NCBI GenBank assembly: GCA_016193065.1
Contig: JACPSX010000021.1
Span: 1 to 8,362, forward strand
Length of the DNA: 8,362 nucleotides
Source: Candidatus Tectimicrobiota bacterium
GTDB lineage: Bacteria > JACPSX01
Direction of reading: 5' to 3'
Shown here: piece after piece, positions 1-8,202 of the stretch
How positions within the stretch are numbered: position 1 is the stretch's first letter
Layout: each line of letters starts with the position of its first letter
The notes under the pieces: generated by a model
Told to the model about the DNA's origin: nothing
The model's database searches: none
Seen by the model: the letters and a program-made list of their open reading frames with translations, nothing else
Made by a program: the position numbers and the translations under genes

Positions 1-196
1 AGCTCCCCATCTGATGCGGTCCGATTGAAGACCCTCTCTTTCCTAGATCATGTCCACCAATCTGGTGCTTAGCAGTCCCAGCGCTCCACGGTCACAGGCC
101 CTCCGGACTACTTGTGGGTTCCGAGGAAAGAGTGCCTTGTTTCCACCGCCGAAAGTTGCTAGTCTAGTGACAGATTTTTATACGGGAGGGTACGCT

Positions 197-436
197 ATGG
201 TCAAGGTCCATGCACAGCAAGTGGGGCCCGAGAAGGCTCTTGTGGACCGGGAGGAACTTCAACATCTCATAGATGTGGCCCGGAAGGTTGAAGAGGTCGA
301 ACTGATCGAGCTTCAGGACGACTTGCCCACCGAGGGGTTGATGCGGCTAGTCCAGGAGGGCGGGAGTTTCGAGTTTCTTGAAGACTCACGGGAGGACATC
401 TATACGCTCAGCGATTTGAAGGTCCGCTACCGTTGA
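197..436 (+). CDS. Antitoxin of a PemK/MazF-type toxin-antitoxin pair
   Basis: A 79-residue acidic protein (roughly 19 Asp/Glu against 10 Lys/Arg) that overlaps the start of a PemK/MazF toxin by 4 nt. I infer that it is the cognate antitoxin, which would bind and neutralise the toxin and probably repress the operon. The start is ATG at 197, because GGGAGG lies at about 185-190 with normal spacing. The frame stays open up to an ATG at 50, but that extension is Pro/Ser-rich, has no ribosome site and does not look conserved. The middle (about residues 16-40, ALVDREELQHLIDVARKVEE) should form an amphipathic helix. The C-terminal half ends in IYTLSDLKVRYR, probably the toxin-binding tail. I see no clear AbrB, ribbon-helix-helix or Phd fold, so the DNA-binding class is undetermined. 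The role rests mainly on position, size and charge. Confidence 0.8.
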   Translation: MVKVHAQQVGPEKALVDREELQHLIDVARKVEEVELIELQDDLPTEGLMRLVQEGGSFEFLEDSREDIYTLSDLKVRYR

Positions 437-774
437 AAAGGGGGACGATCGTCCTCACCCCTTTTCCGTTCACAGACTTGGCGGGTACGAAAATCCGACC
501 TGCCATCGTGGTTTCCCGGACCGACCGACCAGGGGACGATGTAATCTTAGCTTTCATCACGTCCGTACCATCTTCAAGACTTCTTCCCACGGACCTCTCT
601 CTGGAACCTTCCCACCCGGACTTTCGAGCCACTGGTCTGAAGGTGCGCTCCGTCATCAAGTGCGATAAGCTCGCGACCGTTCAGCGGCGGATCCTCCTGG
701 GTGAGCTTGGAGCCCTCTCTCCACCCCTCATACGGGATTTGGATCAACGGCTGAGGCACGCCTTGAAGTTATAG
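433..774 (+). CDS. PemK/MazF family endoribonuclease toxin
   Basis: A 113-residue protein of normal MazF length, predicted to cut mRNA when not held by its antitoxin. The N-terminus KRGTIVLTPFPFTDL is the classic first strand pair of the family. KIRPAIVVS follows, with Arg22 as the likely catalytic arginine, and AFITS with Thr43 at the position of the second active-site residue. LKVRSVIKCDKLATV (about residues 69-83) matches the family's third conserved block. Translation starts at TTG (433-435), whose last two bases are part of the antitoxin's TGA stop. This TTGA overlap makes toxin synthesis depend on antitoxin translation. No ATG or GTG fits near the conserved N-terminus. All key residues are present, so the toxin looks intact. 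A chromosomal stabilisation or stress role is inferred only from the family. Confidence 0.92.
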   Translation: MKRGTIVLTPFPFTDLAGTKIRPAIVVSRTDRPGDDVILAFITSVPSSRLLPTDLSLEPSHPDFRATGLKVRSVIKCDKLATVQRRILLGELGALSPPLIRDLDQRLRHALKL

Positions 775-2761: not shown

Positions 2762-3880
2762 TCATTCGAATTTCTTCCCCAGGCTCTCTTTGTAGCCGGT
2801 CAGCTCCACGTACCCTTTCCCCCGAATGGGTTTTCCTCTCTGCGTTCCTCGCACCTGCACGCTTCCTTCCCAATAGATAATTCCAGTGGTTAGGCTGGTA
2901 TCCAGCTCTTGTTCGGGAAACGCCGGAGTCACCGTAAGCTCAATTCCCTCCCCAGGAATCAATAAGACCCAACCGCTGGGATAGGGAGTTTGAGAACGGG
3001 GACTGCGCCAGCGCCCGGTAGCCTCGACCGAAAATGCACCAGACGGGAGGTGGATGCTCCTGCCATCGGCCAGGACCCGGGTGCCGCTGGAGAAGGGGTC
3101 GACTCCTCCACCCCGGCGGCGGATCTGGTAGAGCATGATTTCCGTACCGTCTTCGAGTTGAAGACCGAACCAGTCCCAGCCCACCTGCTCGGGGTCCAAC
3201 TGGTTGCTGCCAAACTCATGGTCCATCCAGGTCTCGCCGTTCACTGCAAAGACTTTCTCCCCTAACCGCAGGGAGCCCATGGCCGCAAGACGCGTCAGAG
3301 AATAGTAGTAGGTTGCCCGCCCTTCGCCCGCCCCTTTCCGGCTAAGCCCCTGCTCCCCATGGAGGACGGGCCCCTTGCGGGGGCGCAACGCGAGATTGAT
3401 CTCTCCTTCAGAGGCCGCGGCCTTGAGAAAATGGGTTCCCCCCTGTAACTGCGCCGACCAGTTCTCGACCCAAACCTGATAGCGATCCGTGCGGCTTCCC
3501 GCTCGACCCAGAACTGTTCGATTCATCTTCTGCCAGAAGAAAAATTTCCGGTGCTTGAGGTCCGAGAGGGCAAAATGCGCGAAGTAGAGATCCTCGGCCT
3601 TCCAGGCCGAAGGATTTTCCTCACGGGCCAGATCCTTTAAGCCGCTGCGGAAGAAGGTGAGCTGAAACCCAAATTCCTCTCCCGATGGAGAGCGCAGGTG
3701 GCCCGTGTAGTACCACCATTCGGTGCGGTAGTCCGGGTGCGAGGCATGGTCGCGGGGAAACTGAATCCGGTAACCGGGGGCAGCGGACCGGTAGTGAAAC
3801 GGCCCGAGGACGACGGGCAACACGAGCAGAGCCGAGCACAGGCGAATCCGCAAGCCGGACCGAAGAGGGCGCAGATTCAT
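2762..3880 (-). CDS. Secreted AttH/CrtC-like lipocalin-fold protein (COG5621-type 'predicted secreted hydrolase')
   Basis: A 372-residue protein with an N-terminal signal sequence: Arg-rich residues 2-13, hydrophobic 14-27, no lipobox cysteine. Hallmarks of the AttH/carotenoid-hydratase-like double-lipocalin family are all present: TEWWYYTGHL (53-62), LYFAHFALSD (98-107), GETWMDHEFGS (215-225), GWDWFGLQL (234-242), IIYWEGSV (335-342) and a closing GYVELTGY (356-363). Despite the older name, hydrolase or hydratase activity is unproven for this group. The fold suggests binding of a hydrophobic ligand in the periplasm. It starts 8 nt after the permease C-terminal reading frame, with AGGAA (3890-3886) as ribosome site, so it is surely part of the same operon. 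I infer that it is the periplasmic partner of the FtsX-type transporter, as in AttEFGH-like clusters. Length and motifs look intact. Confidence 0.9.
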   Translation of the reverse strand: MNLRPLRSGLRIRLCSALLVLPVVLGPFHYRSAAPGYRIQFPRDHASHPDYRTEWWYYTGHLRSPSGEEFGFQLTFFRSGLKDLAREENPSAWKAEDLYFAHFALSDLKHRKFFFWQKMNRTVLGRAGSRTDRYQVWVENWSAQLQGGTHFLKAAASEGEINLALRPRKGPVLHGEQGLSRKGAGEGRATYYYSLTRLAAMGSLRLGEKVFAVNGETWMDHEFGSNQLDPEQVGWDWFGLQLEDGTEIMLYQIRRRGGGVDPFSSGTRVLADGRSIHLPSGAFSVEATGRWRSPRSQTPYPSGWVLLIPGEGIELTVTPAFPEQELDTSLTTGIIYWEGSVQVRGTQRGKPIRGKGYVELTGYKESLGKKFE

Positions 3881-3888
3881 GGAATTTC

Positions 3889-4119
3889 CTATTCGTAACG
3901 CAAGGCGCTCGCTACGGGAACGCGGCCAGCCCGGATAGCGGGAAAGATGCCGCCGGCAATTGCAGCTCCCAAGACGAGGGCCAGGGCTTCCGCCACGATG
4001 GCCAGAGGGCTGGCAAACTGGATCGTCCAGCCGAAGGTCTGCAGGTTGATCACGTAAATTAAAATGAGAGACAAAAAGAGGCCCGCCAGGCTCCCCAGCA
4101 GGTGGCCCGTCACTCCCAT
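3889..4119 (-). CDS. C-terminal membrane segment of the FtsX-type ABC permease, in a separate frame
   Basis: Seventy-six codons encode two hydrophobic stretches (about residues 8-26 and 38-61) and end in GGIFPAIRAGRVPVASALRYE, the standard close of a MacB/LolC-type FtsX domain (P-A-x-R-A-x-x-x-x-x-x-A-L-R-Y-E). This is exactly the part missing from the upstream permease. Reading the same frame backward through the upstream gene's stop gives EASLMGV. Joined to IVLT, that makes the usual FtsX continuation RRIVLT-EASLMGVTGHLLG. Its ATG (4119-4117) overlaps the permease TGA as TGATG, and GAGG lies 8 nt before it, so reinitiation is possible. Either it is a coupled second subunit, or it is the tail of one frameshifted gene of about 859 residues. 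I favour the broken or misread single gene. The AttH-like gene follows after 8 nt. Confidence 0.75.
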   Translation of the reverse strand: MGVTGHLLGSLAGLFLSLILIYVINLQTFGWTIQFASPLAIVAEALALVLGAAIAGGIFPAIRAGRVPVASALRYE

Positions 4120-4133
4120 CAGCGAGGCCTCGT
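4117..4133 (-). other. Frame-change site inside the permease (-1 relative shift at a TGATG junction)
   Basis: On the minus strand the sequence reads ACGAGGCCTCGCTGATG. The upstream frame gives Thr-Arg-Pro-Arg-stop. The -1 frame gives Glu-Ala-Ser-Leu-Met, which restores the expected FtsX domain. Adding one G (ACG GAG GCC) would produce a single continuous gene. No X-XXY-YYZ slippery heptamer is seen here, which speaks against classical programmed -1 frameshifting. Confidence 0.7.
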
Positions 4134-6467
4134 CAGGACAATCCGCCGCAGTTGGGAAGGAGCGCAGCCCACGGCGCGCAAAATCCCGGTCTCCCGGGTG
4201 CGCTCGACCACTGAGGCGAGAAGGGCGGAAATGACCCCCAGGACGGCCACCGCCACGGCGATGAGTTCCAGAGCCTTGGTCAGGACAAAGGTCTGGTCAA
4301 AAATCTCCAACACCTTTTCCCGGATCTCCCGGTTCGTTTGCACCACGGCCTCTCCCGGACGGTCCAAGATTTCCACAATCTCCCGCCGCACCTGGTCCGT
4401 GGAGGCCCCGGGGCGCAAAAACACCGGAATCGTACTCAGGCCCGCGTCTCCGAAATCATCGAGAAACCTCTGCCGGTCGATAAGGATCAATCCCTGGTCC
4501 GTGGAGTAGTCGTAGAAGACGCCGTACACGGTGTAGTCTCGAATACCCGACAAGGCAGGAAGGGGGATTTTGTCCCCTTCGCGCACCCCAAAGCGGCGCG
4601 CGAAGCTCTCGGTGACCACAGCTCCTCTGTCCCGTCCCGCCCGGTTGAAGATCTCTCTGCCGTCTCCGGCGCGGAAGCGCAGGTTCCGGTAGTCCCGCAA
4701 GCGGGAGAACTGCCCCGAGGCGAGAACTACGGGTTCACCCCGGAAAGAAATGCGGACCTCCCGGTAACGATCCACCGCCTCCACTCCGGGCAGGCGCTCG
4801 ATCCGGGAAGGCAGGGCGGGATCGAGACGCCCCTGCCGGCGGCCCTCAAAGTGGCCGGCCGGGTAGACGACCAGGTCGGCACGGATCGTGCCCGCAATCC
4901 ACTGCTCGACCGTGAGCCGAAAGCTGTGGACCATGGTCCACAGGCCCACCAGCATGGCCACGCTGATCAAGAGAGCCGCGACCGCGATGGCGTTACGCCG
5001 GAGGGCGCGCCGAAACGAATCCACTCCAAGCGCCCCCACCTGGGCGCAAACCCGTACAGCCAGCGGGCGCACCAGGATACTGATCAGGACGATCGCCGCG
5101 GGAGAGAGGAAGGCAAATCCGGCCACCGTGAGGAAGGCCGCCCCGTAGCCGAACAGAGGGACCGGGCCCACGGGTTTCTGGTTAGCGCACAGGCCGGCCA
5201 GCACCAGCAGCCCCAGGCCCACCGCCCCCCAAAGGGTCCAGCGGCTCTCCCCGCGCTCCTCATAACTGCCCCGCGAGAGCGCCTCCCGCGGCACGATGCG
5301 GGCCGCCTCCAGTGCAGGGATCAGCGTGCCCGCCAGCGCCGCCCCCAAACCGAGAAGAATCCCCAGGACAATCCCCTGAGGGTCGGCAATTAACCGGGGT
5401 GTCACACCGGCAACGTAGAGGGCACCGACGGTGCGAGCCATCATCTTGAGGGCACTGCCGGCAAGACCCCAGCCCAGAAGGATTCCCAGAAGGCTTCCCG
5501 ACAGGCCGTACAAGGCCCCTTCGGCCAGGAACAGAGCGAGGATCTGACTCCGTCCCATTCCCAGCGCGCGCAAAACCCCGATCTCTTCCCGCCGGGTGAC
5601 CACGGCAAACGAAAGCGCATTGTAAATGAGGAAAACACCGACCCCGAGGGCCAGGAAACTCAGGATCCTCAGGTTGAGCTGGAACGAGGCGATCATCTTC
5701 TCAATCTGCCGCGTGCGGGCCTGCGGACGGTCCACTGTGAAGGAGCCGTTTCCCAGAGCCGCGATGCGGCTCCTCACTGCCGCTTCGGAGGCTTCGGGGC
5801 GTAAGACGATGCCGATCCGGTCGATTTTCCCCGCTTTGCGGAAAAGCCACTGGGCCGCCGACAGGTCCAGGAGGACGGTATGGCGGGGGAGAAGCAGCTT
5901 TCGATCTTTTCCTGCCTCGATGACCCCTCGCACCACCAGGTCAACGGCTCCCCGGTCCGTGACCACCTCGAACCGGCGCCCGGGGGCCAGACCCAAGGTG
6001 TCGGCCGCCGGGCGCGGCAGGAGCACGGAGTGCGGGTCCACCAGGAGGCTTAAAAAATCCCGGGAATCTCTTGTGCCGGTCAGGGGGAAATCCCGGAAGG
6101 GGTTAGCGCTGAGCAGATCGAGTCCCAGAAAGAGCAAGGTCTCCCGGGATCCGGCCACGGTGGCGTTCTCCTCGATGCGAGGAACCACCTCGGCCACTCC
6201 GTCAACGGCGGAGACTTTCAGGAGCAGGGTCTCTTCCAGCCCCAGGTCTCCCCGGCTCACCTCAAGCTGGCTTCTGCCCGCTGCGGCTTCGAAGGACTCT
6301 ACGAAGGATCGCTCAACGCTCGTGTTGGCCAGGCGGACGGCCAGCGTCACGGCCACCCCCAGGACGACTCCAAAGAGGGTCAGGAGGTTGCGTAACCGAT
6401 GTTCCCGGAGGTGACTCCAGAACAGAGACACTGCGAGAGTAAGGAAGGAGAAAAGACCTCTCCTCAT
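4119..6467 (-). CDS. ABC transporter permease with two FtsX/MacB-PCD units (AttF/AttG-like), C-terminus cut by frameshift
   Basis: A 782-residue inner-membrane protein. Its order is: TM1 (about 27-47), a first periplasmic MacB-type core domain (48-260), an FtsX domain with TMs near 264-290, 308-340 and 363-388 including RREEIGVLRALGMGRSQ (292-308), two further TMs (411-428, 437-467), TM 492-513, a second periplasmic domain (515-725), and the start of a second FtsX domain (TM 732-757, then VERTRETGILRAVGCAPSQLRRIVLT). It then ends abruptly with RPR, lacking the last two helices, which lie in the next frame (4119-3889). The joined protein would be about 859 residues, normal for a fused ten-helix permease. 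It starts with ATG at 6467 and overlaps the ATPase stop as ATGA, showing tight coupling. Proteins of this type use ATP-driven mechanical motion to move lipoproteins, lipids or other envelope substrates rather than forming a simple channel. The substrate is unknown. Confidence 0.88.
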   Translation of the reverse strand: MRRGLFSFLTLAVSLFWSHLREHRLRNLLTLFGVVLGVAVTLAVRLANTSVERSFVESFEAAAGRSQLEVSRGDLGLEETLLLKVSAVDGVAEVVPRIEENATVAGSRETLLFLGLDLLSANPFRDFPLTGTRDSRDFLSLLVDPHSVLLPRPAADTLGLAPGRRFEVVTDRGAVDLVVRGVIEAGKDRKLLLPRHTVLLDLSAAQWLFRKAGKIDRIGIVLRPEASEAAVRSRIAALGNGSFTVDRPQARTRQIEKMIASFQLNLRILSFLALGVGVFLIYNALSFAVVTRREEIGVLRALGMGRSQILALFLAEGALYGLSGSLLGILLGWGLAGSALKMMARTVGALYVAGVTPRLIADPQGIVLGILLGLGAALAGTLIPALEAARIVPREALSRGSYEERGESRWTLWGAVGLGLLVLAGLCANQKPVGPVPLFGYGAAFLTVAGFAFLSPAAIVLISILVRPLAVRVCAQVGALGVDSFRRALRRNAIAVAALLISVAMLVGLWTMVHSFRLTVEQWIAGTIRADLVVYPAGHFEGRRQGRLDPALPSRIERLPGVEAVDRYREVRISFRGEPVVLASGQFSRLRDYRNLRFRAGDGREIFNRAGRDRGAVVTESFARRFGVREGDKIPLPALSGIRDYTVYGVFYDYSTDQGLILIDRQRFLDDFGDAGLSTIPVFLRPGASTDQVRREIVEILDRPGEAVVQTNREIREKVLEIFDQTFVLTKALELIAVAVAVLGVISALLASVVERTRETGILRAVGCAPSQLRRIVLTRPR

Positions 6468-7210
6468 GCTGCGTCCGGATTTTCGATCATGCCATCCCGC
6501 AGGCGCACGATCCGGTCGGCGCGAGCGCCTACTTCGGCACTGTGTGTGGCCAGGACCAGGGTTTTCCCGCGTTGGCGGCAGAGATCGAGAAGAAGGGCAA
6601 GGACCTCGAGCCCTACCTGAGAGTCCAGGTTCCCGGTGGGCTCGTCGGCTAAAACAATTTGCGGATCGTTGGCCAAAGCCCGGGCCAGGGCCACCCGCTG
6701 CATTTCCCCGCCGGAAAGCTGATAGGCTTTCTGCCGGGCCCGGTGTCCCAGATGAACGCGATCGAGGAGTTCACTTACCTGCGCTTCCACTTTCATGGCC
6801 GGCTGCCCGTTTAAGTGCAAGGGGAGGGCCACATTTTCCCAAACCGTGAGGGTAGGCAGCAGATGAAAGAACTGAAAGATGATCCCCACATGCCGCCGGC
6901 GGAACAGTGTGAGATCTTTCTCTCCCATCGCGGCCAGGGAGTGCCCGGCCACCCAGACCTGTCCCGCAGTCGGAACGTCGAGCCCGCCCATAAGGTTCAA
7001 AAGCGTGGTCTTACCGCAGCCGCTGGGACCCATGAGGGCAAGCGCTTCCCCCCGGGCGACCCGCACCGTAGCCCCCCGCAAGGCATGAACGGGCTCCGCC
7101 CCGTTCCAGTAGGTCTTGGTGACCCCTTCCAGGGCAATGGCCGGCTGTTCTCCTACTCCTCTCTTCTCCACGGACAATTCCAAGAAGACTCGCTGCCCAG
7201 AATATGTCAA
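6464..7210 (-). CDS. ABC transporter ATPase, LolD/MacB/FtsE type (AttE-like)
   Basis: A 248-residue nucleotide-binding subunit that would power the FtsX-type permease encoded next to it. All motifs are intact (numbering from the TTG start): Walker [10 protein letters not shown] (61-69), Q-loop Gln113 in [18 protein letters not shown], signature [16 protein letters not shown] (164-179), Walker [14 protein letters not shown] (185-197) and H-switch His223 in LATHS. The sequence through the Q-loop and signature is typical of the LolD/MacB group. Its TGA stop overlaps the permease ATG. The start is uncertain. TTG at 7210 gives the longest form, but its nearest AGGA (7229-7226) is about 15 nt away. 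GTG at 7171 (235 residues) is an alternative that still keeps the whole domain, which begins near [11 protein letters not shown]. It lies 17 nt after the URO-D-like gene, so cotranscription is likely. Confidence 0.93.
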
Positions 7211-7227: not shown

Positions 7228-8202
7228 CTAAAGGGTGGTCAGGAGTTTCATGAGATTGTGAAACTGTTGAGCAGGAATCTCAGGGTCCATTTCACCGGGA
7301 GTTACAAAAAACCATTCTCTCCCCAAGGAATCCCCCCAGGAGACCCGGTTCTTCAACGCCTCCTCTTCCCCGGCAAGGGCAGGTGCAGACAGAGGAACCC
7401 CGATCGGGCAATTCACCCGCCCGGCAGCTTCCCGGAAAAACTCGGCCGGCTGGTCTGTCAGGAAGGCAACCGCGTCGACCTGCACCTCTGCCAGGGAATC
7501 CAGAACCGCCAGGTCTGCAGGGCCATCCAGGGCCATCACCAAGGGGGCCTCAAAGTAGTTTGCCACGTTTACCTGAGGCCGGAAGAGGTCGGCAAGTAAC
7601 TCCTTTCCCCAATTCCCCGGAACCGCCGGGACTGCATCCAGGAGGAGAAGGACCTCTGTTCTGATCTCGCAGAACTTCTTGAGAAGCCCGAGGCTCACCT
7701 CACCGCAGGTCAGCACCAGCTCCTCGGCAGCCGCGCTCTCCCTGCGAAACTCGCAGAGAAAGGAAGCTCCCGCCAACTGCCGAGCCAGCAAAAAAGGTCC
7801 GGGCACAACGCCAGCCACCCGGGGCGAACCTCGAAATTCAGCCAAGAGCCTGCGGGTGGCTTCCAGGACCACGGGCACGGCGCCCCGTTCTTCCCAGCCG
7901 GCGGGCCGGAAGCGCTCCATCTCCTGCACAGAGGACAGCAAAGGAACCGCAATCCGCTTCTCGCCGGCCTCCCACCCGCACGATGCGCCGCAGGCTTCGG
8001 CCAGCAGAGCGCGGTCAAAGTGATTGCTGACGATCCGGTAACCAAACAGGCGCTGGGCGGAGCGCAAGCAGCGGGTCAACGTTCCCGGATCCCTTTCAAG
8101 TTCCGCAGCCGATACCTGCTCCAGCGCGCCCGCCAGCCGATAGACCAGAGGGAAGAAGGGCCGCCCCCCGCCTCCAATCATCTCCAACAAAGTGCCCGCC
8201 AT
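7228..8202 (-). CDS. Uroporphyrinogen decarboxylase-like protein (URO-D/MtaA superfamily)
   Basis: A 324-residue TIM-barrel-type protein. Recognition rests on the spacing of family blocks: RPFFPLVYRLAGALEQVS near the N-terminus (14-31), LRSAQRLFGYRIVSNHFD (46-63), VAGVVPGPFLLARQLAG (129-145), LLLLDAVP (185-192) and the C-terminal FFVTPGEMDPEIPAQQFHNL (298-317), which matches the '(F/L)x(T)xGxExPPxTPxEN' end of the superfamily. The N-terminal Arg-rich substrate loop of true HemE is not seen, nor is a clear His-x-Cys...Cys zinc site of corrinoid methyltransferases. It is therefore probably neither standard HemE nor a standard MtaA. I prefer ATG 8202, because GGAG (8211-8208) lies 5 nt before it. 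The slightly longer GTG start at 8208 abuts that site. An in-frame stop precedes at 8214-8212. It is the first complete gene of the leftward operon; a link to the transporter is not obvious. Confidence 0.8.
   Translation of the reverse strand: MAGTLLEMIGGGGRPFFPLVYRLAGALEQVSAAELERDPGTLTRCLRSAQRLFGYRIVSNHFDRALLAEACGASCGWEAGEKRIAVPLLSSVQEMERFRPAGWEERGAVPVVLEATRRLLAEFRGSPRVAGVVPGPFLLARQLAGASFLCEFRRESAAAEELVLTCGEVSLGLLKKFCEIRTEVLLLLDAVPAVPGNWGKELLADLFRPQVNVANYFEAPLVMALDGPADLAVLDSLAEVQVDAVAFLTDQPAEFFREAAGRVNCPIGVPLSAPALAGEEEALKNRVSWGDSLGREWFFVTPGEMDPEIPAQQFHNLMKLLTTL

Follow-up and report, generated by a model that had tools for sequence, protein, structure and literature searches.

The window (the whole 8.4-kb stretch of DNA analysed) is an entire contig, C172, of a draft genome that consists of 294 contigs, is 86% complete and contains N runs. 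The minus strand carries a three-gene operon in which the permease is divided between two reading frames, with the following features:

6464..7210, minus strand: ABC ATPase of LolD/MacB type, intact, overlapping the start of the permease (profile match)
4119..6467, minus strand: duplicated FtsX/MacB-type ABC permease, first part, 782 aa before the break (two MacB_PCD and two FtsX matches; lolCE and ADOP matches below cut-off)
4117..4134, minus strand: junction, with frame change, GAGG and TGATG overlap (sequence reading)
3889..4131, minus strand: the same permease, last ~80 codons in the -1 frame, including the last two helices (profile matches, alignment with relatives)
2762..3880, minus strand: CrtC/AttH-like lipocalin protein with two domains, intact, directly following the permease (PF07143, 5e-55; PF17186, 8e-44)

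At the other end of the window, a PemK/MazF-like toxin gene (433-774, plus strand) is preceded and overlapped by a 128-aa orf with no Pfam match, possibly an antitoxin gene (the pair spanning 50-774, plus strand).

The permease orf (6467..4119, minus strand) ends in ...QLRRIVLTRPR and is followed by a 76-aa orf (4119..3889, minus strand; MGVTGH...ASALRYE) in the -1 frame, which reads EASLMGV...ALRYE across the junction (cggattgtcctgacgaggcctcgctgatgggagtg). The stop codon of the former (TGA, 4121-4119) and the ATG of the latter (4119-4117) have one A in common (TGATG), and GAGG (4131-4128) lies 8 nt 5′ of this ATG. Both the division of the permease over two frames and the TGATG junction with its upstream GAGG are thus as the earlier note had described them. 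The frame change adjoins an ACG codon (4133-4131), and the base absent at ~4131 does not lie inside a long homopolymer. The second frame contains no stop from 4299 to 3889 and matches positions 56-118 of the 120 in the Pfam FtsX profile (PF02687; E 6e-4), although with 20.2 bits the fragment alone falls below the cut-off of 25.5 bits. It also matches the last 68 positions (736-803 of 803) of the NCBIfam ADOP profile, and the proteins of relatives align with it unbroken over the junction. The coding match of the second frame exceeds chance, because both C-terminal profiles are matched and the alignment with relatives continues over the junction.

The first permease orf passes the Pfam cut-offs for MacB_PCD (97.6 bits, cut-off 27) and FtsX (79.7 bits, cut-off 25.5), while its scores against the ADOP profile TIGR03434 (72.9 bits) and the LolC/LolE profile TIGR02212 (89.3 bits) place it outside both families (curated cut-offs 622.3 and 362.45, respectively). 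The lipocalin gene also neighbours the permease in 30 of the 80 relatives with enough flanking sequence, and both neighbours, ATPase and lipocalin, are present in 23/85. The operon of ATPase, duplicated permease and CrtC/AttH-like lipocalin is a widespread and ordinary type. At many Nitrospira loci, the ATPase gene lies further upstream and no lipocalin match is found near the permease.

Relatives were collected by searches of whole genomes and species genomes, giving 85 related long-permease loci, none from the phylum of the window; the 80 loci from species genomes have 31-39% identity to the window permease. In 83 of the 85 the permease is one orf that runs 79-87 residues beyond the position of the break in the window, typically ending in a motif resembling ALRYE, so that the helices of this FtsX/MacB-type permease, divided in the assembly as given, lie in one chain. 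The two exceptions are a gene that runs off the end of its contig and one in a Nitrospira draft (CG24E) with a frame break of its own (near 7450-7500 of its locus, L074), tens of residues further downstream. None of the 85, which include no close relative, is split at the position seen in the window. Dividing the identity to relatives over the 78 residues after the break by that over the 75 before it gives 0.951 for the window, and because this matches the value for relatives among themselves (0.932 ± 0.067), the C-terminal part is judged to be free of decay.

A screen of the draft for places where the coding signal moves to another frame covered 40 stretches (421 kb excluding N, with the window among them), and breaks were counted when a family search placed both parts in consecutive profile ranges in different frames. 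Six other conserved genes, in stretches L103, L104, L115, L118, L123 and L131, are cut mid-gene in this way:

ParA: frame break between AAA_31 profile positions 2-97 and 109-170
TRAP DctM: frame break between profile positions 2-193 and 208-413
LPG_synthase_TM: frame break between profile positions 3-100 and 145-270
Acetolactate synthase: frame break between a part reaching profile position 351 and one starting at 359 (profile length 557)
DMSO-reductase-family molybdopterin oxidoreductase: frame break between Molybdopterin profile positions 1-81 and 127-352
UbiD: frame break between profile positions 8-52 and 65-205

With that of the window, seven frame breaks in 421 kb correspond to ~1 per 60 kb, an approximate rate and a lower bound. 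For acetolactate synthase, the whole draft gives no match above the family cut-off, which 14/14 control genomes pass. In this gene (L118:3838-5440, contig C17 of the draft), profile positions 110-149 (~40) are also absent although the DNA is uninterrupted, perhaps through assembly collapse. The same screen returned 10 strong candidates in the 421 kb of the draft, versus 3 in 382 kb of a second genome (G047), at least one or two of which look by eye like real frame breaks; the comparison therefore shows about a threefold excess of breaks rather than a clean zero in the control, and real mutations may account for some of the breaks in one draft or the other.

Several candidates were left out of the count: screen hits in L125 and L130 that by eye are normal gene ends, NuoL (L124) and ArgB/ArgD (L134), which were ambiguous after family search, and a putative break near 913 in L103 that is clear by eye, with no family match for its second half. 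A gene for a Csx15-like CRISPR-associated protein (L102:1109-1435; NF040560), whose profile match does not begin until position 25, adjoins a long orf in another frame and is possibly a further frame break. Contig C4 (L105) reads as N over all of its 2774 bases, and N there may not mean unknown bases.

Three readings of the junction had been offered in the earlier note: sequencing error, recent inactivation and a genuinely split subunit. An indel error in the draft assembly of one ordinary permease gene is the best reading and, in our judgement, a probable one, because the gene is continuous in nearly all relatives and other conserved genes of the draft are broken likewise. The locus would then hold a single gene for a duplicated FtsX/MacB-type permease of ~860 residues, partner of the adjacent ATPase and lipocalin-type protein. 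The absence of one base at ~4131 in the assembly would shift the frame, so that the last two helices would appear as a separate 76-aa orf. We infer that it is the assembly, and not the DNA of the organism, that lacks this base. A real and recent one-base deletion is unlikely but deserves some weight; it would make the gene a pseudogene or strain variant, whether in the organism itself or in some minority strain within the community. A C-terminus free of decay is equally compatible with a very recent event and with an error, and the position outside a long homopolymer also speaks for a deletion. However, the several other broken genes in the draft, a biosynthetic gene among them, and the intact operon partners of the permease count against such a deletion.

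That the last two helices form a separate subunit in the lineage of the window, translated by coupling at TGATG, is very improbable. The overlap of stop and start, the GAGG 8 nt before the ATG and the conservation of the downstream orf would all suit a two-chain permease, but the continuous orf in relatives, which the earlier note had itself named as the outcome that would speak against a natural split, and the lack of any relative split at this position oppose it. The putative start and Shine-Dalgarno signals are also internal codons: GAGGC encodes Glu-Ala, conserved in relatives (E in 68/82, A in 67/82), and the ATG falls on an internal position that L, I, M or V occupies in relatives, so both GAGG and ATG are present for coding reasons, as in any continuous gene. 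Programmed -1 ribosomal frameshifting, yielding the full-length protein, would agree with the -1 relation and with a second frame open upstream to 4299. Neither of the two hallmarks of a gene of this kind was found: the overlap of the frames contains no in-frame X XXY YYZ slippery heptamer, and a stimulatory structure is not indicated, the RNA at the junction folding no better than shuffled sequence (z 0.40). As relatives in addition need no shift, we rejected programmed frameshifting, to which we attach scarcely any probability.

The apparent split is thus most likely not a real feature and adds nothing on the substrate of the operon. Breaks of this kind, affecting single genes in fragmented draft metagenome genomes, can mimic split subunits with convincing start and Shine-Dalgarno signals, and claims on split or fused genes from this draft need care.

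Taken as one chain, the permease resembles ADOP-type duplicated permeases (TIGR03434) in having two MacB_PCD/FtsX units in a single protein of ~800-870 aa, but it lies so far under the TIGR03434 cut-off as to represent a separate subfamily. With LolCDE and MacB systems the operon shares an FtsX-type permease accompanied by a LolD-like ATPase, and among solved structures its permease is nearest in sequence to chains of MacB (5nik) and LolC (7arh). By analogy with these systems, the permease is presumably ATPase-driven and of the mechanotransmission type. It differs from both in being duplicated, without a fused ATPase, and in the lipocalin-type protein encoded downstream, and the operon scores below the lolCE and LolD cut-offs. 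In gene content the operon resembles ABC transporters with an AttH/CrtC-like lipocalin: here too ATPase and permease genes adjoin one for a CrtC/AttH-like lipocalin. Some genome annotations name such lipocalin-linked transporters AttEFGH (e.g. PMC6386574), the genome context of NE1406 likewise places a lipocalin-type protein with an ABC transporter, and earlier work connects the CrtC/AttH-like fold family with lipid metabolism and, via genome context, with ABC transporters (PMC2954199). The substrate of the window operon is probably lipid-like and handled together with the CrtC/AttH-like lipocalin protein.
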